The notes under the pieces are model-generated. The model saw only the letters and a program-made list of their open reading frames with translations, was not told the DNA's origin and searched no databases. Both the position numbers and the translations under genes were made by a program. DNA of 64,000 bases from Sipunculus nudus (Eukaryota; Annelida; Sipuncula; Golfingiida; Sipunculidae): NCBI GenBank assembly GCA_026874595.1, contig CM049310.1, positions 35,502,058 through 35,566,057 on the forward strand. Direction: 5' to 3'. Shown here one piece after another: positions 5,208-47,322 of the stretch. Numbering within the stretch: position 1 is the stretch's first letter; each line of letters starts with the position of its first letter.

Positions 5208-8200
5208 ATGGCCAATGCAGCGATGAAAAAAGGTGAGCGAAATTCTTTTTTATCAATAATACATACAACTTTATAATTACTAGGGGTATCTATTTCATAT
5301 GAATTATCTAAAGACATTAAGCATTAGACGGGTTTGCGTAATATTCTGGAAGAGGAGTCAATGATAATCAATCAGGGAAGAGACAGGATGCTCACCTTAG
5401 TTAGACCGTGTGGATGTATAAATCGATTTCCAACAAAGTAATACTCTTAATGATATAATAATTTAAACGTCTTAAAATCAACTGGGAATATATTTGTGGT
5501 TCTATTTATAAAATATATATTTGTTCACTAAAAATTACAACAACATCGGTTTTGATTTTACTTTTTGGAAAATTAAAGTATATTAAAGGAGTTATTGTCG
5601 TAAATATATTATAACTTTGATTGCTTTAACGAGCTACTTGTTTATTGATCTTTTCCAGTCTGCTTGAGGATTGTTCCCGGTTTGCTTGAGAACTGCCAGC
5701 CTCACAGAGCAGCGTCGTCCATGCCTGACAGACTCCTGGGACAGTGCACCGAACGACTTAGACGCATGCGCCGCAACGCCACCTACCAGCGGCAAGAAGA
5801 AATGAATCCATCAGTTCAGCAGCCACACGTCATGTTGAATCATTACCCCAGAAAACTGTTGTCGTTTTGTTCAACTGATTACTTAGGACTTTCAGTAAGT
5901 CTGACATATTAATTATTTTGGCTAAACTCTTTTTTAGTTCATGTGTCTTATATAAAGAATTAAAATATTGCATTTTCCGGGAAGATTTTACAAAAATTAT
6001 ATGTTTCCATAAACACATGAATCTGGCGATATATCTGCAAGAATACCTCAGTAAGTTGCGAGGAAGCATCATCGAACGAAAGATTGATCGAGAAACACAT
6101 CCTTCTTTATGTTAGTGTTTTCGTCAAGACTTATGTTAAATATATTATTATATTATTCCCTGCGTGTTTATGTCGTATTTTTATATATTTATCTTCAGAC
6201 TAACCCCTCTGTCGTGGCTGCCTTTAACAGGTCGACATATGAAACCAACATATCCCCGACGCACAGGACAGGCGGGCCCGTTCAGGTATGTTCTGTGTAA
6301 ATCAATTAATTAATCTTTTTATGCCCCTTGATTATTCGAATATTTCTGGATTTTACTATATTGATTATCTTTGATGCTGATTTTTAAAACAAAGCTATTA
6401 TCTTAAACTCAATCTGTATATGTTTTTTTCTTTCAGAGTGACATACTCGCATTAGAAAGTACGGTATCGGATTTCCATGAACGTGAACAGACTCTGACTT
6501 TTGCGTCACTTGATCAGTGTATGACGTCAACATTTTTTGCGTTGTTTGATAATGATGACGTCATATTTTGTGATGAGAACAGCGAAGGATCAGCCCAGTT
6601 AACATCACGAGCATGCACGGCACAAACGATATCATACATGCATTGCAACTTAAATGGTAATTATCAAACATATCGGTGAAAACAGCTGTCTGTGGTGGTT
6701 GGTCAATAAGACTTCACAAAGCTAAGTTTAGTCAAATCAGATATAAATATAATCAGTTTCGTTTAAAAGTGTATATTTATAATAATATTATTATTTTGTT
6801 TTATTATATTAAATAAATTTATAGATGTATGTTTTAGTTTTAGCAGTTTATGAAGATGTTACAGATGTAAACATTTATATTAATTTTAGCCATTTATGGA
6901 GATATAAAAATGTTATAAAATTTAAAGATATAAAATTAAAGGTTTTACCATGATAATCTATGGTATGGAACAGAGGTCAGTATAATTGCTTATGAAAAAT
7001 AGTTGTCATTAAGTATGCGGCTGTTCATTAATACACTGACATGTATATAAAGACACAGTTTTATTATTTTTCCCCTCATTTTATTTTGGACCTGGAAACA
7101 TGTATTTTTATTTATTTATTTATTATCATTTTATTTTAGATCTGGAAGCACAGCTACTTTCTACTAATAATAAGGGGATGAAGGTGATTTTTACTCAAGG
7201 ATATTATACATCAACTGGAAGAGCAACGAATCTCAGGTTTGTACATTAAAAATGATGCAAATTTTAGAAATATAGTACATACATTTGTCGTTAGATGACT
7301 GATACATCCAAGACACGTTTATCCAGTTGAGGTCAATTGATGCCGAGTATATAAACCTCTAACCAGAAGTCTCTTTAGTACCGGTTATAGGACAGCTGTA
7401 AGCAATTCGGTGTACATGTAAAATCTGTCACAAGATGACATTGTAACATCAATAATATTTTCAATAATCATAGAATTTAAAGACTGAATTAAATTTAAAC
7501 TTTAAAATCAAATAAATATTTTTTTTAAAGAGGAATCTGTAGAATTTTGAGGGATTTGTCAGTGCGGTTCCTTGAATTGAAATGCATGTATTTTTCTTAC
7601 ATCGGAATATTGATTACATCCCTGATGAAGTATTTATACTGGCTGCACAATAAAAAAAACTGCATGTGCATAAAGTATGTGATTATTTTGACACTGTTTT
7701 AAATACAACAGGAAGCTTATGGATCTTGCGGATGAATACGATGCCCTGGTGATCCTGGACGACTCACAGTCAGTTGGAATTATGGGTAGTAATCTCAGGT
7801 AATTTATATTCAAACGCCGAAATATTTCCAAACTTTCTTATCTAATGCCATATATATTCTATCTCAAATAGGACATTTATTTACCCGAAAAGAGTCCGTA
7901 GTATATACAGAGCCACAGGTCACTGCCTTCATTTATCTAGCGGACGGAACGTATTCAAGTGGTAGACGCAGCACTTGTTTTGAGTATATCAGATCCTGTG
8001 TGTTGGATGCCTGTCCTTGTGAGCCGGCGTGATTGTTTCTGTGCATGTGTAACATCATCACTGCCGTGAGTGTCTTAGTGACTGGACCACTGGCTACACA
8101 CGCGAATGTTTCAGCCTGCGAAGTGTATTACACTTAAGCAGGGTGGACCAGGAGGTAAGCAGTCATGATGTAACACATGCACACGGCTTGCTGAAGGCAC

Positions 8201-8452
8201 ATGCACAAAGGCAGTGACCTGGGGCACTGTATTATACTACAGAGCCACAACTTATATACTTATATACTTCTCACCACATATCCGTCTTTTTCTTACATGT
8301 ATTGAAAGTCATCAAAAAAGAAAATTTAAAATACATTTAAAATTTTTATGTTATGTTAACTGCCTATGATTACTTATTGCATTATTTACTTACATGATTT
8401 CGAATGAATCCTAATCATTTTTAATTAGTCACTTGAAAGGATTTTGACAAGG

Positions 8453-8504
<52 letters not shown>

Positions 8505-10186
8505 TTCTTGAATGGACACACACAAAACTGGAACATACGGAACTGTACTTTTACCTCATTGTAATTTTCCAGAGGTATGGAAGAAACTCTTAAAGAAGGA
8601 CAGAGCCGACCCATGTTGTTATTTGGATCACTTGAGCACGCTTTTGGCCAGAGTCAAGGCGCCTACGTCACGGGACCAAGTCAAGTGATTGAGACCATTA
8701 AGGCAACTAACGCCATATATCGCCCAGACTCCGCAGTAGCATTGCACCCTGCAGTGGCAAAAGTTGCAAACTTGGTACTTGATTTTTTTTTCATGCATAA
8801 AGGCAGTTCCTAACAAAGAAAAATGTCAAATCCATATTACTTTGATATATGAATGTCAATGTGGCAAATTTAAAGACTTCTTGTAACCTTTCTAATGAAA
8901 CTGATCATTTTCTTCGTGGTCTGTGAGTTCATGCTTATGGAACATAAATCTTGACTTAAGCTTTAAAATATGAGACTTTTTCACATGCAAAGCCTTCAAT
9001 TTTTATAACGTTCAACCTCAAAGCAAGAAATTTGATAGACGATTTAGCATAACCAATTTACTGTTTCTTTGAGCCAAAGTTTAACTGATCCATAAATATT
9101 ATGCAAATTAGACTTGTACTTTTGTATATTCTTTCTCTAGATATTAGCCAAGAATGGTGGACTAAAGAAAATAGCGAGCTCAGTCCGCGGGAAGGGGTCT
9201 CACCTAAAGAAGGCCTTGAACAGCTTCGGTCTGTTGCCCTTTGTGGACACGCATCCCTCCGTGTCGGTGGTCGTTGGGCATGAGCGGAGAGTGGACCACG
9301 TCATGGATCAGTTGTTAGGCATGTCGTCTGCTTTGTTAATATAGACATGATCCCTGCTTCATTCAGTAAGATACGCATGACCCCCATCTCAAAGTGTGTT
9401 ATGACTAAATCATGAACACCAACATTTAAGATGGTTGGTTTTTTCTATCTCAATGCTATGGAACCTAACGTATAAACAACTCATACCTGATCCATTTAAT
9501 CCGAAAGCCCTACAGTTAGGGTCTGAATATCGATATCGGAATACACGTCAATATCGATTATCGGCTCTGGTCCAATGATCGACTAAAATTGTAAATAGAT
9601 TATAAAATATCAATATTTGTAAGCCAAGGGAGTCTGAAAAACGTATTTAAAAACAGCCATGCTTGTGTGACTACTACCGAAAATGTATGAAATAGCCTTG
9701 TTGTTGCAAAAAAAAGCTTGTTTGTCAAAGAAGTTTTCTATTTATTAGAGCTATTAAAAATAATTTCGGTCCTATAATACACCGAGCGATAAAATCAAAT
9801 ATTCCACCAGCCATGTATAACTGATTAGCTAAGCAAAACGGGATTTTGACGAAATGGAATATACTCTGTACATTTGTGTGCATTTAAAACAATGAAAATA
9901 CAACCATGAAAATGAAAGTAGTGACCGGGTGTGCTTGCAAAGATATAATTTTTGTCTACACCTTGTAGCTGAACGTCTCTTATAGAATTTAATTTTACGA
10001 AAACGCTTTCATATTAGTTTATAGATTATTTGAATTTAAAATAATTGTGATTTTCTGTTACTTATTAGATATGGGCGTACTTGTTTCTCCGGTAAAAAGG
10101 ACAACATTTCCAAATGGTAAGCACATTACTATGTTATATAAATCAGATTAAGCTGTATTTGAATGGGTTTGAATAAAAATTGTTTG

Positions 10187-10230
<44 letters not shown>

Positions 10231-10537
10231 GACTTACATTATTTATTCTAATAAAATGTAAATAAGATAATTATTAATAAGCAGAAATAGATGCTTGTTA
10301 ACTTTTCGAAAATAAAGATATAATGATTGAATCTGACAAAATAACAGATGGAGTGTTTACTTTTTCCGGATGTCTATCTATAATGTTTGTTTTGTTTCAG
10401 GCGCTGCCAGAGTGTCCCTGCACGTTACCGCGGTACACTCGTATGAACACCTGGACCAGCTTATGGAAGCCATCTTAGCAGTGGCCAGAAGATGTAAACT
10501 GCTTGGGCAGTCTCACAGAATACCTAATGCAATATAA
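5208..10537 (+). CDS. Alpha-oxoamine synthase-family protein, probable PLP pseudoenzyme (10 exons)
   Basis: Exons: 5208-5232, 5659-5894, 6199-6285, 6437-6656, 7140-7236, 7712-7798, 8573-8774, 9141-9318, 10069-10116, 10401-10537. They total 1317 nt, 438 codons plus TAA, with every phase matching. Family members condense an amino acid with an acyl-CoA using PLP. Visible landmarks are the N-terminal SFCSTDYLGLS (about 77-87), the central FCDEN (160-164), VILDDSQSVGIMG (235-247), FGSLEHAFGQSQGAYVTG (268-285) and the C-terminal ARVSLHVTAVHSYEHLDQLM. In active enzymes the third block reads DEAHSxG and the fourth T-[LF]-S-K-A-[LF]-G. Here the lysine is His273, the DEAHS His is Gln241 and the stacking His is Glu166; Asp238 is kept. 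The length is normal for the family and no frame is broken, which argues for a maintained gene rather than a decaying copy. SPTLC1, the non-catalytic serine palmitoyltransferase subunit, also lacks the lysine, so an SPTLC1-like partner role is one option. The exact subfamily cannot be decided by eye. The nearest clear AATAAA is at 11350. Confidence 0.85.
7908..8229. mobile_element. MITE with about 22-bp terminal inverted repeats and TA flanks, in intron 6
   Basis: The left end reads CAGAGCCACAGGTCACTGCC and the right end, reversed, reads CAGTGCCCCAGGTCACTGCC, both followed by TT. Both ends are bordered by TA (7906-7907 and 8230-8231). The 322-bp size, lack of coding capacity and TA flanks fit a non-autonomous Tc1/mariner-type element. 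It lies wholly within intron 6 of the PLP-family gene. The similarity extends a little beyond the TA on both sides (GTAGTATA), so the true boundary could be further out. Confidence 0.65.
8454..8500. repeat. (TA)n microsatellite in intron 6
   Basis: About 23 TA units lie 72 bp before the exon 7 acceptor. Open frames reading through it are artefacts of the repeat. Confidence 0.9.
8573..8774 (+). CDS. Exon 7 of the PLP-family gene: Schiff-base region without lysine
   Basis: This 67-codon exon carries the segment that in active alpha-oxoamine synthases holds the PLP-binding lysine. The block FGSLEHAFG followed by GAYVTG aligns without gaps to the family pattern in which K precedes A-[LF]-G and GGY follows. 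The lysine position is His273, encoded by CAC at 8636-8638. The exon follows the acceptor TTTTCCAG at 8565-8572 and ends at the donor GTACTT (8775). The ORF reads three codons past the donor before any doubt arises, but the next exon (ATATTAGCC) restores a family-like helix, so the splice is preferred. Confidence 0.85.
9319..10068 (+). other. Intron 8 with a GC donor (GC-AG)
   Basis: Exon 8 must end at 9318 for the reading frame to join LLD-MGVLVSP across the intron, but the intron begins GCATGT rather than GT. The acceptor is TTATTAG at 10062-10068. GC-AG introns are a known minor class. No GT donor nearby gives a family-like continuation: reading on past 9318 in frame reaches TAG at 9341-9343. 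Confidence 0.6.
10192..10227. repeat. (AG)n microsatellite in intron 9
   Basis: About 18 pure AG units lie 75 bp after the exon 9 donor of the PLP-family gene. Confidence 0.9.
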
Positions 10538-14907: not shown

Positions 14908-17900
14908 CTGTCTTTCATAAACATACACGTGTATATGAAATCCCTCGGTTAGCGTATGCAAACGGCCATGTTATACCCTATTCTTCAACAAACCAATCGT
15001 CCGGATACCTGATACGAAAGCGTGAATAAATAAACCTCTGTTCAAAGAGGGATCCGGCGGTTATATAATCAACGTTTAAAGGAAATAGACACAGCCACCT
15101 GGAATATTCAACATATCTGTTCGTAACAACTGAATCCAGATACTGCACTTGTCTTCAGTGGAGGCTCTACGCTGCTTCAGTCTGCCTCGTATACAAATCT
15201 ATCAAACTGTATTAAATCTGCGCTCTCTGTTTCAAGGCCTGTAGCACTGGAAGTCTTGCCTTGGGATTATATGCTGAACCGCTCGTGCTGGATTGCTATA
15301 CTTACAGCAAATGTTACATTCCTCATTCCTTAAAAAATGAATATCTAGTTGTTTCGGAGTCATTCATCACAATCACCGTTAAATACTGAATGGTGAACTA
15401 GATTTACTAATACATTGTTGCAATGACTAGTTCAGTTTTGTTATACCCCGAAAAAAAATGTACTCCGTATCAGACCGTTGTCTTGTGACTACGTGGTCCC
15501 TGCTCGTACATGAGATAACCTTTCTATTCCATAAGGAATTATCTGACAAATACTTACTTCATCCGTTAAATACTGCCAGGCTTTCATACCGCTTTATTCA
15601 GTATACGCATCTGCTCCTTGAATCTTTTTTCAACATAATGATAAAACTTGTACTCCAGAAGAAGATTTTCTCTTACTAATTTTTCGGTCAGATTATTTGG
15701 TATCTTTACCTTTCTGTTCTTCATCTTTTCTTTCAATTGACTGCCTAGAACAGAAAACATATAACTGTGTAACGGTAAATGTTATTTATATCCGAATAAT
15801 TTATATTATTAAATTAGTTATATTATTGCACTAATATCTACTCCCACCCAGTATTAGCACGATGAAATCAAAAGAAAGCACTTTCAAAACATTCAATACT
15901 AATGAAACACTGGGTAATAGAATTTTTTTCGCATATTTTAAATGAATAAAAGGCACAATATGGTAAAAAGTGCTGCACCACTTATATCGTGTTTATGCTT
16001 TATCATACTCTCGTCAACATTACTCTGCTGGCGTTTCTTTTTAATATAGCTTTAGTTCAAATAAATATGAACATGTCGCACTGTTTGTCATCTGCGGTAC
16101 ATTTTACCGTATAAACGAGTCAGCTGTATCTTGATTGTACTTACCATAAAAATCATACATGGATGAAAGCCCACTGAAGTAGCTAGGTACAAGATCCTCT
16201 AATACCTTTAGGAAGCCACCCATCTGCTCAGCTACCCCAACCACAAGGTAGTGCTCCGCTACGTTCTTCTTTGCCTTCTCCAGTGCAGCCATGGGGTCTT
16301 TACTGAAAGTGACAACACAGCACCGTGTTATATTGATATTCATAAGGGTGAACAGCCGTCAACATACTGCCACGAGGAAGCGCTCTTTGTCATTTATGTC
16401 ACTTATTACCAAATAAACCAGGACTCTTTCAACTTCAGCCTAATTCATTAGTCAAATGACGTTGAGTAATAGATTTATTGTTAAATATTTTAGGGATTTT
16501 AAAATATTCCGACAGGAAAATAGACCGAATTGGTCACGTATTTTTCACTTTTAGCCAGGCACAGACAGTTTGAAGTTAACTGTCCGAGACTCTTGTCACT
16601 CTAATGTAAATTTAATTTAAAAGAGAAATAAATAGTAAATTATTCGTTCCATTTGATCAGTGGCTTCCACCATGATACCTTTATTTTTGCTCCATTTGAA
16701 GGCTGATATAAAGTTTGTTAACTATATACCCGTTTGTAAAACAGTAAAAATTGTGGGGCGAGCACCTGTATGAAAATTTTCCTGCACCTTGTCCAGTATG
16801 CCATCATACTAGAAGGAGAGACCAACCAGTGCTTATGTAATAGCCCATGACTTTTATTTTCTATTTTACCCCAACCTTATCGCCAAAGGTCGCTTCTATA
16901 CTCAAAACTAACCTGTTCCAGTTGGGAATTGTGAGGATATCCCAAACTACTTGTCTCAACTGTCAAATTTTATTACATTTCACACAAACACATTTTTTTT
17001 TGTTTACATTTCACATTGCGTAGGCTTTCAAAATATTACTTATTATGTGAAGTCCTTGCCACAAAATACCAATGTTTACGTAATTTGCCTTGAAAAAACT
17101 TTTATCCAACGTAAATGATCGGCTTACATTAACCCCTTCACTACATTTATCCTTGTAAGTTTAAAAGGTTTTTCCAAGATCTTTTAGGTTGAAAAAAGAG
17201 ATGGGACTGAATAGGGAGACTGGCGGGCGAGCTTTAACTCCCTGACGCGGGTAGACATGTGCGTTATTTGAAATCAACTCACCCGCATATTTCATCATAT
17301 CCACAGAAGAAGCGAAGCTGGGAGGTGAATATATTATGTCCCCAACATCGCTTATCTCTCCTCTTTATACATACGTCATAGGATTCTGAAATAGTCACAG
17401 TTTATAGCATCATATAGTTTCAAACATGTTAATCAGTACTTTGGAAAATATAAGCACTGAAAGTCCTTAAAATTATTAATTTTACGTATAAATTCCCTTA
17501 ATTTTAATGGACAAAAAAATATGTGTATTGCTTCAGGTTGTAGGTCTATTTTTACTGAATGAAAAAGTTTAACAGCCAAGCCGTCCCTTACACATGGTCT
17601 TATTATCTCCAGTTCAATTGTTTAATACCTTCTGTGTCAGAGTAATCACAGTCCACGTATGTGTTTTCCATAAAATTATATCGGTACAATCTTTCACATG
17701 GACAAGACATACGAAAAAAAACAAACAAACAAGTAACATCGGTAGGGAGCTTGTAAATATATTGATTTGTGATGTTGCGCGTTACGGCCACCAGGTGGCG
17801 TACACACGTTGTTCATGTTTTCAGCCGCTGATCGCGCCCGGAAGAGCTTTCTTCCACATGTGCACCATAGAATGCAAACGGTTTTAGAACGTAAAAATCA

Positions 17901-24017: not shown

Positions 24018-26640
24018 ACAATATCCACAGGTTCTGCTTACGCAATATACATCGACGTATCCACTCACTCAGTACGTATCATAGTGGTGAAGAGGGTTCA
24101 CAATGGCCGATGATATCCGGGATCTCCCGATATGATGTTAGTTTAAGATCGGAAATCGCATCGGATTTTATCGGGAAACATTTGATATCATCTTGAGGAA
24201 ATTTAAATTCTCAAAATACCCGGTATTTTTTTAGGGGGGGGAGGGATAACATCGGGTAACAACAAGATGTTGTTATTATTTAACTCCTGCTGCTTCATGA
24301 GGATGCTTAATTGGGTAAAGTTAATTTTCCTATTAACTGATCATACAGAAGTTTTACATATTAGTGGCTGATGCCAGTCTATATTTTATTTCACTGGAAT
24401 AAAGAAGGGGAGGGGAGTGCGACAATGGGCTAGAACATGTTATGTCGTCTTCCGAGTGTTAAATAACGATGGATATATAACAGGAAAAAAGTTATAAACT
24501 CGCGGAATCGATAGGTATTATACCTAACTGGTTATTACCTTGACTACACTCACGGACATATCACAAAAACGCAGCCTTTTAACTTTCGAAATAACATAAA
24601 TTTTCAAATGGGTTTTCAACTGGTACTTTTGTGCTTGTTCCAGGCCCCTCGTTCGTAATTTTGCTAAACCTGAAACTGTTTCATTATCAGAGCCGGAAGT
24701 GTAATCCCTTCTCTCTGTTCAACCAAGACCAATACAAATTGCTCCGAATACCGGCTGAAGCATAGCTGTGAACCGAACCCTTTTGGCCGTGACCAAACTT
24801 ATAAGGCTCAGAGCGCTGAAATATGCCTTTGAAATATACGTTTCCGGTACAAAAAAAATGGGGTTGGTGTTATCGGCGAAAAAGAGGCTTATAAATGAAA
24901 TAATGAAAACATAAGATTGAAGAAGTCAGTGGTTTTTTGTTTACAAATAACTATATTTTTTTCTTAAAGCAACCCTAACATTACAATACATTAAATCAAT
25001 ACAATTACACAATATAACAGCGGTATAACAACAAATCAATACAATCACACAGTAAAATAAACAAAGTGCACAGTACCTGATACCACCACTGTCCAAACGA
25101 TTAGTCCTTTTAAATGTAATACGGATGTAAAGTCCACACAAACTCTCCCGGAGAATAACAGTCCAATGTAAAGCTCTTTGTAACAATCCAGAAAGGAAAC
25201 TTGAGGCAGCCAGCACCAAATTATATAGAGTTATTAATAGTAGGATCCCTGAAATTACAGGATAATCAGACAGGTCCCACAAACTGACATAAACACGTTT
25301 GTGTCCGCCGGAATATTCTCTCCTCTCTCTCTCGGCTTAAAACACAGCCCCCTATTTATAACCTCTCACCCCAAGCTGAGAATTTTCCACTTCTCGAAAA
25401 GTCTAAAGAATCCAACATAACACACAGTAAAGACGCGTTACAGGAATCGTCTAGAAAAACATCGCTGTGTCTCAACATATAAGGGTTCACACGTGAGCTC
25501 GCCCCGGCTCGGCCAGGCGAGAAAGCCCCAAGCCAGCATGTCAACGAGAATTCAACCAGTACGGATTAAACTGAGAATGCAATATGCGGCCAGACACGGG
25601 CGCTACAACACGAGTTACGCCCGTGTCACACAATAAAAACGTCACCTGTAACAAAATTTATTCAACAAAACCAGCGATGCTGGCTCAAAGGACCCAAAGC
25701 AAGCAAATAAAGTGTTGTGCGCATGCTCGTAGGAACTGTCTAGTACGTACTAAGGTACCTTTTTGAGGGGCCCAATCACCTCTCTGACCTTTATAAACTA
25801 AAAGTAATCACTTGGAGCTTTTATAAAAATATGCTAGAAAACGTGAATATTACCGCACACAGGCTGCTTGTTTTGTTTATATCAACGTGTTTCTAATATG
25901 TGGGGTCAGCCAAAATAATCAAAACAAATTCAACAAGGGCTTCTGGTGGCAAGCCAGATAAGCCAGAGCTTTTCAAATGGCGTTTTGCAACAAGTGATCT
26001 TTCTTCCTCGGCATATATGCAACCTACCACCTTAGGTTATATGTTTTCCCGCTTGTCAACATTGCTGTGTTTACGAACACGTTGTTGATAAACCAGTTCA
26101 TACATCCTTCACGGAGGCGTAAAAGAATTTTTATTAAGAAGAATTACCCTAATATACTTATATATATATAATATCCTAAGATCACTTATATATAAACAGA
26201 AGAAACCAGAATCACATAAATTATTTTTTCATAAGGCAGGTTAATGGGCACCTATAAACACTTACCTGAATTGCTTTCAGTGATGGGGGCGGGGCCCTGA
26301 CCAGAGCAACGGCAAATCCTCGCTCTTTTGATTTCATCTTCATCAGTTCGTAGACAGCTCTGCTCCCGCACCGTGCAACCCTATTGTAGATAATCTGCGG
26401 CGTCGGGTCGGCCTGCAGGACTGCTCTCCACCGTTTCTCTTCCCAGTAACCGTATTCTGCCTCTACCAGTTCTTTCTTGCGCATTTCCACCCTCCTTTCC
26501 GGTAAGTATATTCTGTCGGGCTCCCTCTCCTCAACAAACTTCAGGTCGTAGTTTCCCAGCATTTGTTTGTGCTTGCTCGCGATCAGGAACACCAACGTCT
26601 GGAACCCAATCAGGATCACCAACAAACGCCACGTGATCAT
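14779..26640 (-). CDS. Golgi 2-O-sulfotransferase, HS2ST/UST (uronyl 2-sulfotransferase) family, 8 exons
   Basis: Exons in transcript order: 26640-26266, 22056-21974, 18428-18331, 17690-17629, 17317-17283, 16302-16145, 15744-15710, 14907-14779. They total 975 nt, 324 codons plus stop. Family enzymes move sulfate from PAPS to the 2-position of uronic acids in glycosaminoglycans in the Golgi. Residues 3-22 form a type II membrane anchor. The 5'-PAPS loop is IIYNRVARCGSR (83-94), close to the UST form RVGKCGSR but with Arg90 for Lys. YIRHMLYLDF (142-151) holds the catalytic His145; IYINLIRDPYERLVSRFYY (159-177) is the 3'-phosphate region; RFFCG (208-212) and ALEKAKKN followed by HYLVVGV are family blocks. 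N128-F-T is a glycosylation sequon. An acceptor CAG at 26649-26647 directly precedes the first coding exon, so a 5' UTR exon lies further upstream. The first three exons and the RFFCG and ALEKAKKN exons are secure; the 62-nt exon and the last two are inferred from splice sites and phase. Confidence 0.8.
15710..15744 (-). CDS. Sulfotransferase exon 7, 35-nt (tentative)
   Basis: Acceptor TTCTGTTCTAG and donor GTAAAG bound 35 nt that accept the incoming phase and read G-SQLKEKMKNRK, a basic stretch at the place where HS2ST has a basic linker. Splice signals are good and the phase fits on the upstream side, but so short a sequence cannot be confirmed by similarity. Confidence 0.5.
16145..16302 (-). 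CDS. Sulfotransferase exon 6: ALEKAKKN helix and VGV block
   Basis: Acceptor CACTTTCAG and donor GTAAGT bound a 158-nt exon encoding KDPMAALEKAKKN, then HYLVVGVAEQMGGFLKVLED and LVPSYFSGLSSMYDFY. This matches the UST/HS2ST segment in which ALERAKLN is followed by LVGVxEExxxFxxxLE, a leucine-rich helix, then PxxFxG. The longer open frame upstream (MNINITRCC...) is intronic. Confidence 0.85.
17283..17317 (-). CDS. Sulfotransferase exon 5, 35-nt microexon
   Basis: Acceptor CACCTCCCAG and donor GTGAGT bound a 35-nt exon reading LRFFCGYDEIC plus a split Gly. [IL]xxFCGxxxxC is a conserved family block before the ALEKAKKN helix, which follows in the next exon (16302-16145). Confidence 0.75.
17629..17690 (-). 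CDS. Sulfotransferase exon 4 (62 nt, tentative)
   Basis: Acceptor TGTGAAAG precedes 17690 and donor GTATTA follows 17629. With the incoming phase it reads D-CTDIILWKTHTWTVITLTQK and ends in phase 0, exactly what the next exon (LRFFCG) requires. Family members carry a variable Cys-containing segment here, C-x7-C before FCG; only one Cys is visible, and the segment is shorter than in UST. The join is forced by phase more than by recognisable sequence. The alternative reading frame gives ENTYVDCDYSDTE but breaks the join. Confidence 0.5.
17788..17803 (+). promoter_or_regulatory. CTCF-like motif, + orientation
   Basis: CCACCAGGTGGCGTAC fits the bilaterian CTCF core CCASYAGRKGGCR at all 13 positions. 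It lies in sulfotransferase intron 3. Confidence 0.45.
18331..18428 (-). CDS. Sulfotransferase exon 3: 3'-phosphate-binding region
   Basis: The exon lies between acceptor TTTCAG (18434-18429) and donor GTAAGT (from 18330). It encodes FERKPIYINLIRDPYERLVS followed by RFYYEALQAGRN. IRDPxERLVSxFYY is the classic 3'-PAPS-binding strand-helix of HS2ST and UST, with Arg165 and Ser173 kept. It joins exon 2 (21974-22056, ending YIRHMLYLDFS) through a split Leu codon. Confidence 0.85.
18474..18700. repeat. Long imperfect hairpin built of TCTCGAGAT words
   Basis: The left arm (about 18498-18565) and right arm (about 18620-18690) are inverted copies built from ATCTCGAGATCTCGACTTAA units, separated by about 55 bp. 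It begins with GTGGCTGATTCAGGACA. A partial copy of the same end occurs in opposite orientation at 21133-21175 (TGTCCTAAATCAGCCATCA beside TCGAGATCTCGAGAT), so this is a dispersed foldback element. It lies in sulfotransferase intron 2. Confidence 0.75.
18770..20230. repeat. Complex tandem repeat, about six diverged units
   Basis: Units share a core reading roughly GGAAAC...GGTCTCTGTTACCCATATTC, then AGCTATGGGGCTxATAA. Cores lie near 18860, 19205, 19550, 19800, 19965 and 20135. Spacing falls from about 345 bp to about 170 bp. The first two units also share GACTGGTGGCGCCACCTGTA. G/C homopolymer runs follow several cores. Similar words recur at 33140 and 33440. No coding content. Confidence 0.75.
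20877..21087. mobile_element. MITE with about 37-bp inverted repeats and GAGATA duplication
   Basis: The left end GGCAAGAAGCCCCGGTTGTT continues AGATCCGACAGCCATGG. The right end reversed reads GGACAAGAAGCCCCCGTTGT, then TAGGCCCGACAGCCATGG. GAGATA flanks both sides (20871-20876 and 21088-21093), consistent with a target-site duplication. The 211-bp element has no coding capacity and lies in sulfotransferase intron 2. Confidence 0.7.
21133..21175. repeat. Partial copy of the TCTCGAGAT foldback element
   Basis: ATCGAGATCTCGAGATGTTG is followed by TGTCCTAAATCAGCC, which reverses to the same terminal words as the element at 18474. Only one end is present. It lies 45 bp from the MITE at 20877-21087. 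Confidence 0.55.
21622..21689. repeat. Compound (CA)n(TA)n microsatellite
   Basis: About 16 CA units are followed by about 17 TA units. Confidence 0.9.
21974..22056 (-). CDS. Sulfotransferase exon 2: catalytic histidine strand
   Basis: The exon lies between acceptor TTTGTTGTAG and donor GTAAGT, starting in phase 0. It encodes AANFTESFMNVKKPL and then VYIRHMLYLDFS. The R-H-x-x-Y-[LV]-[DN]-F block is where HS2ST and UST carry the catalytic His (His145 here). N128-F-T is a possible N-glycosylation site. Confidence 0.82.
22430..22690. repeat. Dispersed repeat, copy 1 of a direct pair
   Basis: This about 260-bp segment is repeated in the same orientation at 23410-23650. Shared words include GATGTCCGTGTTTACT, AAATAGTTGATGTC, TACAAAAGACAA and GATAAATTAC. 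The copies are roughly three-quarters identical by eye. No coding content. Confidence 0.6.
22883..22897 (+). promoter_or_regulatory. CTCF-like motif, + orientation
   Basis: CCGGTAGAGGGCGAC fits the CTCF core with one mismatch (G for A at position 3). Confidence 0.35.
23410..23650. repeat. Dispersed repeat, copy 2 of a direct pair
   Basis: Diverged direct copy of 22430-22690, with the same order of shared words. Both lie in sulfotransferase intron 1. Confidence 0.6.
23964..24015. repeat. (TA)n microsatellite
   Basis: About 26 TA units. Confidence 0.9.
24868..25630 (-). mobile_element. LTR-like repeat, longer copy (in sulfotransferase intron 1)
   Basis: Read on the - strand it starts TGTGACACGGGCG and ends near CGATAACA. 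It contains a TATA-like GGTTATAAATAGGGG about 240 bp in, and an A-rich AAAAAATATAG where the other copy has a poly(A) signal. A second copy lies on the + strand at 38810-39338, lacking about 150 bp in the middle. TG...CA ends with promoter-like and polyadenylation-like signals fit a solo LTR. No matching target-site duplication is visible, so the boundaries or the class may be wrong. Confidence 0.5.
26266..26640 (-). CDS. Sulfotransferase coding exon 1: membrane anchor, stem and 5'-PAPS loop
   Basis: This exon encodes residues 1-125 and ends in phase 0 at donor GTAAGT (from 26265). It opens MITWRLLVILIGFQTLVFLI, a short basic N-terminus followed by one hydrophobic segment, which is the Golgi type II topology. 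A charged stem (about 23-75) follows, then the 5'-phosphosulfate loop NRVARCGSR (86-94). In HS2ST the loop is PKTGS and in UST GKCGS; the catalytic Lys is Arg90 here. This is the most confident piece of the gene. Confidence 0.85.
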
Positions 26641-26728
26641 CCTCCGCTGAAATGTAAATATTCAACCAATTATAATTACTATCAAACACAGATAGAGGTA
26701 TAGTCCCTAACAGTGATTTCTTAATTGT

Positions 26729-43734: not shown

Positions 43735-44493
43735 ATGGCAAGTCAGGAATAGATGTTGTTGGATAAACTGGGGGATATGGAGCAGAGTTTAAAGCAGCAC
43801 ATGGAACAAACATTACAGGTAAAACTTAATGACTTGCATAAAACTTTAGCAGCAGACATAAATAATATAAACACTAGAATAGACAGCATGCAGGTAGAAT
43901 TAGGTCAGGGTAGAGAGGAAATGAAAAGACAGGTCACAGCTTTAGAAACAAAATGTAATGAGAGCATATGCTTTATGAAGAGAGAAATGAAGGAACAGAT
44001 TTCAGACGTCAGAGATAAATTACACAGACAGGAGATAGAGATGAGGGAAACAAATGCAGATTTGGAAAGAGAGATAAATGAATTGAAATTAAAGATGGAT
44101 GATTTGGAACAACATGGGCGTCGTACATCTGTACGAATATTTGGAGTAACAGAAAGTGCTGAAAATTGTGAACTAGAAGCCATGAAACTATTCAGGCAAA
44201 TAGGAGTTCCAGTTGAAAGCTGGATGATAGAGAGAGCACATAGAGCTGGTAGGCCAGGAGGTAAACACCCTAGAGCAATTCTTGTAAAATTTGTCAGCTG
44301 GAAATTTAAGGACCAAGTTGTTAGAGCAAGAAAACAGTGAAAGGGTCAGGTGTAATTATAGTAGAAGACTTTACAAAAACTAGGTTTGATCTGCTCAAAC
44401 AAGCCAAACAGCATCCACAAGTAGAGGCCGCATGGACCTCTGATGGCACTATTATTGTAAAATTAACAAGTGGTCACAAAAAGTCTTTCATCT
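43735..44493 (+). pseudogene. LINE ORF1 protein (coiled coil plus RRM-like), broken
   Basis: ORF1 proteins bind LINE RNA and chaperone it. An ATG at 43735 is followed after five codons by TAG (43750-43752); the long frame then runs 43753-44340 (195 codons). Residues 1-125 are charged heptad-like coiled coil (for example EINELKLKMDDLEQHGRR). Then RTSVRIFGVTE and IERAHRAGR match the RRM-like and [IV]ERAHR[VT]G blocks of L1 ORF1. After the TGA at 44338 the C-terminal domain continues in another frame to TGA at 44494 (words IIVEDFTKTRFDLLKQAK), showing a frameshift near 44335. Confidence 0.75.
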
Positions 44494-45178
44494 GAGAAAG
44501 ATCTTAAGAGATTATAACTGATATATATATATATATATGTCATGCTGTATACTGCATGAAGAATGAAATACAGGTATTTGGTAAAACTGTGTGAACTAAA
44601 CACATTTTTACACGAGATACATAAATAACAGAGTAGTATTGTATTTCATGTTAAACTTTAATATGTTTCTATTGATTCCATCACTTTAGAGCACAACATA
44701 AAACAATATGTAGATCATATTATTTCTTTTAATATTTTTATCAAAGTGAACCTGCTGTAAAATTGGGTAATGCCACTATTGAGAAGTGGCACTAAATATT
44801 TTGAAGAAGTTTTGTACCCAATGTTTTTACAATAATGAAGACAAATGTACCTAGCTGAGTTTATTTTGAAGTGTTGTATTGAAAGCTGTGGAGTGGAAAC
44901 CATGGTGGACCACCTGTTCTTTGTTCCAAATAAGCTAAAGGATATAAAGGAACAAAGGACACCCAGAGACTCTCTTTGTTATAATCTGTTGCCTGTTTTG
45001 GCTTTTGGTCCTTTTCATAAAGACAAGAGCAAAGCTGTTTAAATCCTATAGCACTTGTTTCAACTTGAAACATAATGGTAACTGCACCTTCAGGCATTGG
45101 AATAGTTTATGGACAAATTGTAAATGAAAATTTCAACTGGTCATGGTATCACTCTAGAAACGACCACAATTCAATAAC

Positions 45179-46184
45179 ATGAATAAACATTTTAACCTGC
45201 TCACTTTAAATGTTAGAGGACTCAATAATTTTAAGAAACGAAAATCAATTTTTAGATGGTTGCACAGGCAAAAAGCAGAAATAATATTTTTACAAGAAAC
45301 TTATGGGTCGGTTAGAAATGAAAATCAATGGAAAAATGAATGGGGAGGTCAAATCTATTGGAGTCATGGCTCTAGCCAGAGCAGAGGTGTTGCGATTTTG
45401 TTGAAAAATACTTTAGACTTTAAATGTAAACAAGAGGTTCATGTTCAAGGAAGATTCAGTTTGTTGAGAGTAGAAATTTATGGTGTTGATTATATTCTAA
45501 TAAATGTATATGCTCCGAATGCTGCTAGTGAACAAATATTGTTTTATGCTCATATTTCAGACAAAATAAGAGATGCAATGTTTGAGGCTGATGCTAATGT
45601 TATTATCGGGGGAGACATGAACTGTATTTTAAATGATGAACTGGACAGGAAAGGAGGTATATGTGGGACAAGGAAAGGTGTTGTTAATATCATATATGAA
45701 ATTATGGAAGAATATGACTTGTGTGATGTTTGGAGGGTAAAATATCCTTGCTTGAAACAATTTACATGGAGCCGTAAAAACCCAACATATATAGACGCCT
45801 CGATTATTGGTTTATTTCAAGAAATTTATTTGATTTCATTTCAGCTGTAAACATTGGATATTCTAACCATACTGACCACAACCCAGTTTTTGTTTCCATT
45901 GGAAATAATCAGCAAATTAAAAAAGGAAGTGGTTTATGGAAGCTAAACGCATCATTTTTGAATGTTGAAGAATATATCAAATTGATAAAGAATGGGATAT
46001 CTAACTGGCTTGAAGATATATCAGGTACTAACGACCCGAGAATTATATGGGAATATTTTAAATACAAAATTAGACAAGTGTCAATTAATTATGGAAAGGA
46101 AAGAGCAAAGAGAAATAAAGACAGAGAGAAGGATTTAGAGGAAAAAATTTTTCCTTTCTGTGGAATTCTGGGAAGGAACAATTG
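45179..46184 (+). pseudogene. LINE ORF2, apurinic-type endonuclease domain, frameshifted
   Basis: The N-terminal endonuclease nicks target DNA for reverse transcription. LLTLNVRGLNN, EIIFLQETYG, SRGVAILLKN, LINVYAPN and IIGGDMNC appear in family order in the first frame (45179 to the TAA at 45848). A one-base lesion near 45797 shifts the frame; RLDYWFIS and later TDHNP, the final catalytic box, are read in another frame. The linker (to about 46150) is then interrupted where the RT should begin. Confidence 0.8.
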
Positions 46185-47322
46185 AAAAGGATCCTTCTAA
46201 TTCAACCAGTGACTGCAGGGGGATTGAATGTCCCTCATGTTGATTTTTCAAACCAAAGACAAGAAGTGACAGACATATGGAAAAAAATGCTTGCAACCAT
46301 TGGATTAGATTTCGATCTACTTTTGCATTGTGACTATGGTTTTGATTTTATTTCTCATATAGAAGATGAACACCAGTTTCTGTCGGGTATATTTAAAATT
46401 TGGAAAAAAATAAAATCAGTGAAGCCGATAGTAGATCAGGTAATATGGTATAATGGTAACATTGGTACTGATAGTGTAAATTTTTTTAGTAAAAACTTGT
46501 ATAAATCAGGCTTACTTTATGTGAATAATTTATTTGACCTTGATGGAAAATTAATCCCTTTTAAAACATGGCAAAACAAAGTTGTTAAACAATTGGAATA
46601 TATAAAATGGAGAGCAGTAGTTGAAAAGGTGAAAGTTTCTTGTAAAATATATGATATTGATGTATTTAGTGCATCAAGTGAGTATTCTGATGAGTTGTTA
46701 ATATATGAGAACAGAGTGGGTATACCACTCAAACAGTGTAACTCAAGACGCTTGTATAATGTATTTGTTGCTCTTTTACATGATAAGCAATTTATTCTTA
46801 GGATATCAAAATATTGTTATGATATTGATGAAATTGATTGGGGTAAAATTTGTTTGTTACCATTTAAACTATGCCAAGATACTCAAACAAAATGTTTTCA
46901 GTATAAATTGTTACAGGATATCTCAGTAAATAACTATTGGCTGATGAAATGGGGACTGAAGGACAATAGTAATTGTACTTTTTGTCGTAAAGAAATAGAA
47001 ACAGCTGAGCACCTGTACTGGTCATGTGATTGTGTTCAATGTATTTGGCAGCCAGCACACAATATATTTGACTTGATATAATGAGAATTTCTTAAATAAA
47101 AATGATGTCCTTCTTGGTAATCCTGATTTTACAGACAGTTTAAATCTATTTATTATTCTGAGTAAACGCTACATTTATTTGAGCAGGCAGAAACAAATTA
47201 TTGTTTCATTTTCAGGATTAAAAAAATACCTTGCATTTGTTAAAAATATTGAATTTCTTATTGCAAGAAAGAATAATAGAATTAGTAAATTCCATGACAG
47301 GTGGTCCAATATTCAAATATAA
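46182..47322 (+). pseudogene. LINE ORF2, post-RT C-terminal region with zinc knuckle
   Basis: Starting inside the element, 46182-47081 reads LIQPVTAGGLNVPHVD, the GGLxxP block that follows the RT in L1/Tx1-type ORF2, then a long K/I/Y-rich stretch and a knuckle CTFCRKEIETAEHLYWSC (C-x2-C-x8-H-x4-C). The frame continues after a second lesion near 47080 to TAA at 47320-47322. The RT palm (YxDD, FDKAFD-like blocks) is absent between 46150 and 46200. Confidence 0.75.

Follow-up and report, generated by a model that had tools for sequence, protein, structure and literature searches.

Alpha-oxoamine synthases (AOS) include KBL, which is known in animals as GCAT (EC 2.3.1.29), and serine palmitoyltransferase (SPT). 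Passages of a review describe for SPT a His-Ala-Ser, an Asp at the ring nitrogen of pyridoxal 5'-phosphate (PLP) and the Lys, with active sites that are formed from both subunits; in the same passages the SPTLC1 subunit has no Lys and forms the SPT heterodimer, which makes it a precedent for a non-catalytic AOS protein (PMC6148460). For KBL, parts of a paper on the Cupriavidus enzyme give Lys246 as the Schiff-base residue, a cavity of N52, V81, H138, H215, L274, F275 and R370, and a conserved S187 (PMC9814548). We use EcKBL numbering throughout, obtained by an offset of two that the pairs S187/S185 and H215/H213 in those parts supply and that we extended to the rest. Here we describe a KBL-like gene at positions 5208-10537 (+) of a 64,000-nucleotide stretch of the Sipunculus nudus genome (C5:35502058-35566057, forward strand; hereafter the window), taken from an assembly of 1.43 Gb in 153 contigs.

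With moderate confidence, and judging from sequence, we regard the product of this gene as a non-catalytic KBL pseudoenzyme with a binding or regulatory role, duplicated from an animal KBL gene. The observed basis of this reading consists of the gene model, the active-site residues, the introns shared with animal KBL genes, the presence of Lys-bearing paralogues and a reading frame that has stayed open at great divergence. AOS proteins without the Lys are known from SPTLC1, and pseudoenzymes in general are known as well; a case from the KBL lineage with changes on the partner side of the active site would appear to be new. No KBL pseudoenzyme was present among the literature matches listed, and no text was found that joins the full name of KBL with the word "pseudoenzyme".

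Gene structure, family and active-site residues

Ten exons, rebuilt from the sequence, join into 1317 nucleotides (438 codons and a stop) with no internal stop, just as the initial annotation had it. Splice sites are usable at all nine introns of this manual model: eight are GT-AG, and intron 8 has a GC donor (TTAG/gcatgt, exon 8 ending at 9318). The GC content at third codon positions (GC3) is 0.49, and that of four GCAT and KBL-like gene models from the same genome is 0.45-0.54. The least certain exon is exon 1 (5208-5232; codons 1-8 plus one nucleotide, donor AAAG/gtgagc), and the 5' end may be alternative or non-coding. Bearing on this doubt, Met30 in exon 2 aligns by eye with a Met in one of the S. 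nudus GCAT genes (GCATb) and in both KBL-like paralogues described below. Spliced alignment of the window by an automatic procedure gives the same core of the gene but departs from the manual model in that it did not choose the GC donor, omitted exons 1 and 9 and moved the donor of exon 3 six bases upstream. The manual model was made before the other host genes were fetched, so that its match to the introns of GCATb serves as an independent check.

The product matches the Pfam family PF00155 (aminotransferase class I/II, E 1.4e-19). Its top NCBIfam match is glycine C-acetyltransferase (NF005394; E 1.2e-57, 195.5 bits, under the model cut-off of 460), followed by BioF, ALAS and bacterial SPT, none of them near its cut-off. 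Among PDB sequences KBL 3tqx comes first (E 3.4e-41), ahead of human SPTLC1 (2.3e-10) and SPTLC2 (1.8e-9). The best matches are to KBL models and structures, which jointly span residues 32-427, and the product is collinear with 3tqx over residues 32-424. A protein search with all 438 residues returned 129 matches, mostly KBL-like bacterial or unnamed proteins, with identities of at most 32% among the 120 listed. AOS membership, as originally proposed, is borne out by the Pfam, NCBIfam and PDB matches, and similarity and shared introns together narrow the assignment to a duplicate from the KBL/GCAT lineage. As far as sequence similarity can tell, KBL is the closest family.

In a common alignment, the twelve EcKBL columns N50, V79, H136, S185, D210, H213, T241, K244, L272, F273, S274 and R368 read T, T, E, T, D, Q, S, H, R, P, D and S in the product, which agrees with EcKBL at only one of them (Asp238). 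The N-terminal arm as far as STDYLGLS is encoded by exon 2 (5659-5894), where Thr81 (5874-5876) replaces Asn50. In exon 3 (6199-6285) the Gly-rich segment is altered, with E, N and H for EcKBL G73, G75 and R80, and Thr108 replaces Val79. The PLP-stacking His136 is replaced by Glu166 in exon 4 (6437-6656; residue at 6584-6586, in DENSEGS) and Ser185 by Thr213 in exon 5 (7140-7236). Exon 6 (7712-7798) retains the PLP ring-nitrogen Asp, EcKBL D210, as Asp238 (7758-7760) and carries Gln241 (7767-7769) for His213, both within LDDSQS. In exon 7 (8573-8774) Ser270 replaces Thr241, His273 (8637-8639, in SLEHAFG) replaces the Schiff-base Lys244, and Arg301-Pro302-Asp303 replace Leu272-Phe273-Ser274. 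Finally, exon 10 (10401-10537), which runs to the stop, has Ser399 (10415-10417) in place of the substrate-carboxylate Arg368. Glu166, Asp238, Gln241 and His273 are all as the initial annotation stated.

Among these columns, GCATb and Xenopus GCAT are identical to EcKBL at 12/12, the second host GCAT (GCATa) at 9/10 of the active-site columns that it covers, a KBL-like paralogue on contig C5 at 10/12 (N Y H S D H T K V F S R) and another on C9 at 8/12 (N S H S D H T K N N E R). Next to the phosphate site, the C9 paralogue has NNE for the LFS of EcKBL and so may have a different substrate. In a set of 35 non-redundant KBLs (below 80% identity, drawn from 181 rows), the Schiff-base Lys is present in 35/35, as is each of Asn50, His136, Ser185, His213 and Arg368. 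Relative to KBL/GCAT, the gene described here has replaced the Lys, the stacking His, the third His, Asn50, Ser185, Phe273, Ser274 and Arg368.

At columns at least 95% conserved in the 35 KBLs, the product agrees at 0/7 of those named in the papers versus 33/63 of the others (one-sided Fisher P 0.009). The result is similar at thresholds of 90% (0/9 vs 49/113, P 0.008) and 80% (0/9 vs 64/163, P 0.013). By this comparison, changes fall preferentially on residues of the cofactor and substrate site; elsewhere, strongly conserved columns are retained and altered in roughly equal shares. Since nearly all residues that hold cofactor or substrate are replaced, the protein probably now serves a purpose different from its original chemistry, and Lys-PLP catalysis by the product is very unlikely. 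The initial description as a pseudoenzyme thus holds for the intact frame and the missing PLP chemistry residues; the SPTLC1-like partner role suggested with it is weakened, as discussed below. The possibility raised at the outset that an alternative exon might restore the Lys found no support in a single plus-strand scan of about 7799-9140 with the short motif [STA]x[GA]K[AS], which yielded no such exon.

Host relatives and origin of the gene

A search of the host genome with the protein gave 39 matches: nine of its own exons (each once; exon 1 was not found), seven host exons elsewhere and 23 matches on bacterial-looking contigs. The seven host exons belong to two copies of GCAT on C14 (at about 26.96 and 27.13 Mb), the KBL-like paralogues on C5 (75.6 Mb) and C9 (21.64 Mb), and SPTLC1 on C5 near 2.618 Mb. 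As it comes from a search with this one protein, the count of KBL-like loci is a lower bound. The product is 25% identical to GCATb, 26% to the C5 paralogue, 23% to the C9 paralogue and 18% to host SPTLC1. Both KBL-like paralogues keep the Lys, the stacking His, the ring Asp and the third His. The two GCAT copies lie about 164 kb apart and are 93% identical over 315 residues, with a nonsynonymous divergence (dN) of 0.028 and a synonymous divergence (dS) of 0.092 over 300 codons. In the sequence examined, the 26.96 Mb copy yielded neither its first nor its second coding exon, and it has SASQS where the other has SASHS.

Introns were compared through spliced alignment of four host genes and one common alignment; an earlier spliced alignment, run with a low intron cost, had produced spurious short exons in some host genes and was set aside. 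Eight of the nine introns of the manual model coincide in alignment column and phase with introns of GCATb, for which ten were mapped. The GC-AG intron is among the eight, and so are both introns that flank exon 9 (10069-10116). Such a match has a probability of 3.5e-18 under random placement. The ninth intron, the 5'-most one after exon 1, matches none of the introns mapped in the host genes, the host models being local and perhaps not extending so far 5'. The gene also carries 8/9 of the mapped introns of the C5 and C9 paralogues. A phase 1 GCAT intron at reference residue 268 is absent from the gene and from both paralogues. The GCAT intron at reference residue 338, whose site is covered here by exon 8 (9141-9318), is present in both paralogues and absent from this gene alone. 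On the strength of shared positions and phases, the most likely origin of the gene is a duplication, at the DNA level, of an animal KBL gene that probably belonged to or stood close to the group formed by the two KBL-like paralogues. A retrocopy or a recent transfer from bacteria is ruled out by the shared animal introns.

Constraint and competing explanations

In a neutral simulation (substitutions only), a coding sequence taken to 28% identity acquired a mean of 16.6 stops, with a minimum of 9 in 200 runs, versus zero in the gene. This points to constraint over most of its divergence, in agreement with the initial view that the gene had been preserved rather than simply decaying; present-day constraint is a separate matter. 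The initial annotation also looked to orthologues. None was found: among the 120 listed matches of the whole-protein search most are nameless and none bears an animal name, and a search with residues 174-310 gave no match among 121 candidates. A control search with human GCAT matched 7997 of 7997 scored candidates; many vertebrates and one mite are among the 120 listed, so that animals are present in the database, with mollusc and annelid coverage not established. Search power, expressed as shared words per 100, is about 12 at 57% identity, about 3-4 at 43-44% and less than 1 at 35%; an orthologue below about 40% could therefore be missed.

Under the pseudoenzyme reading that we favour, an intron-bearing animal KBL gene would have been duplicated at the DNA level, probably within or near the host paralogue group. 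Almost all contacts to PLP and substrate, and with them the Schiff-base Lys, would then have disappeared from the duplicate, which retained its reading frame and roughly half of the conserved framework. The product would still fold as a fold-type-I dimer and act by binding, without PLP chemistry, perhaps as a subunit, structural or regulatory, that pairs with itself or with a KBL-like paralogue and does not donate a normal half-site. If so, it would be a second, independent AOS protein working without the PLP Lys, this time from the KBL branch, and it would indicate that this dimeric PLP fold can take on a new role even when it contributes no residues to its partner. GCAT, two Lys-bearing paralogues and the putative pseudoenzyme, largely with one intron pattern, would form a natural comparison set in one genome, in which the order of loss of function, contacts and intron becomes testable in sister species.

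Several results weigh against this reading. Much of the framework has drifted along with the active site, 37 of the 70 strongly conserved KBL columns being altered and 33 kept. In a phylogenetic tree, the gene groups with the two host paralogues only weakly (support 63/47), on an end branch of 5.7 changes per site, and its position is unresolved when these paralogues are left out. A single clade that unites the gene with every animal KBL sampled is disfavoured by an approximately unbiased (AU) test (P 0.031). Because the introns tie the gene to animal KBLs, we read the AU result as a possible case of long-branch pull; the conflict stands. The absence of an orthologue from protein searches that lose power at low identity counts on the same side. 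Together with the single GC splice donor, the long branch, the missing orthologue and the modest share of retained columns would also suit a gene under relaxed selection, that is, a duplicate constrained for long and recently dispensable or unexpressed. We consider this unlikely: the 438 codons contain neither stop nor frameshift, all nine introns of the model have usable splice sites, GC3 falls inside the range of the host paralogue models, and the C5 paralogue model has a GC donor as well.

The nearest functional precedent is SPTLC1, and the product might by analogy be an obligate partner that has no site of its own but, in a heterodimer with a Lys-bearing KBL-like paralogue, makes that paralogue's active site complete. 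SPTLC1, itself without the Lys, takes part in the SPT heterodimer, as described in part of the review cited (PMC6148460), and the host genome holds Lys-bearing paralogues with nearly the same introns; to this extent the partner role in the initial annotation gains ground. It loses ground at the positions that reach across the dimer. According to parts of the respective papers, Val79 of ThAOS sits on the opposite monomer (PMC11906848), and Lys281' of SulA, which belongs to the opposite protomer and lies 30 residues past the Schiff-base Lys, touches the phosphate of PLP (PMC9304779); by offset the latter equals EcKBL Ser274. The product has Thr108 for Val79 and Asp303 for Ser274, whereas SPTLC1 keeps Phe-Ser at 273-274. 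The argument is weak, as it concerns two positions, the second of which is placed by offset, and SPTLC1 too is changed at Val79 (to Pro). A simple SPTLC1-type rescue of a partner's site nevertheless becomes less likely, and we hold the obligate heterodimer to be improbable.

That the gene is simply the host SPTLC1, with a loss of Lys that is already known, is next to impossible. The two proteins do resemble each other in having neither the Lys nor both His residues, and human SPTLC1 reads F P C M E L N N C F S R at the twelve columns. However, host SPTLC1 is a separate locus, aligned with human SPTLC1 residues 8-472 at 56-57% identity in one uninterrupted frame, so that it looks intronless there, and it is our gene that carries the GCAT intron set. 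Human SPTLC1 also has Phe-Ser and Arg where the product has Pro-Asp and Ser. The Arg in our alignment differs from a statement in part of the review, by which SPT1 has no equivalent of SpSPT Arg390 (PMC6148460).

A further possibility is that Glu166, Asp238, Gln241 and His273, at the former PLP ring contacts, bind another ligand or a metal. The former PLP pocket would then have been rebuilt, with Thr81, Thr213, Asp303 and Ser399 around it, and one animal lineage would have acquired novel binding or chemistry on the KBL fold. The replacements are polar or charged and Asp238 is kept, but no second sequence attests conservation of the set, and the pocket is predicted from sequence. We regard both the new ligand and the rebuilt pocket as improbable and prefer the pseudoenzyme that acts by binding or regulation.

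Other features of the window and assembly

Elsewhere in the window, frames on the reverse strand at 16107-16358 and 26224-26661 resemble what we take to be a heparan sulfate 2-O-sulfotransferase gene; in a Pfam scan, neither piece had a match. A retroelement-like stretch at 43753-47078 (+) includes an endonuclease/exonuclease domain (PF03372, E 2.9e-12) at 45158-45847 and, at 46119-47078 (+), a zf-RVT match just below the cut-off.

The bacterial-looking contigs in the assembly include C61, C62, C83, C89, C90 and C117. A low-GC (32%) aminotransferase occurs at six places on five contigs; the five that were read are nearly identical, and the best match among six loci from metagenome-assembled genomes (MAG) is 53%. 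C117 carries an ordinary intron-less KBL frame.

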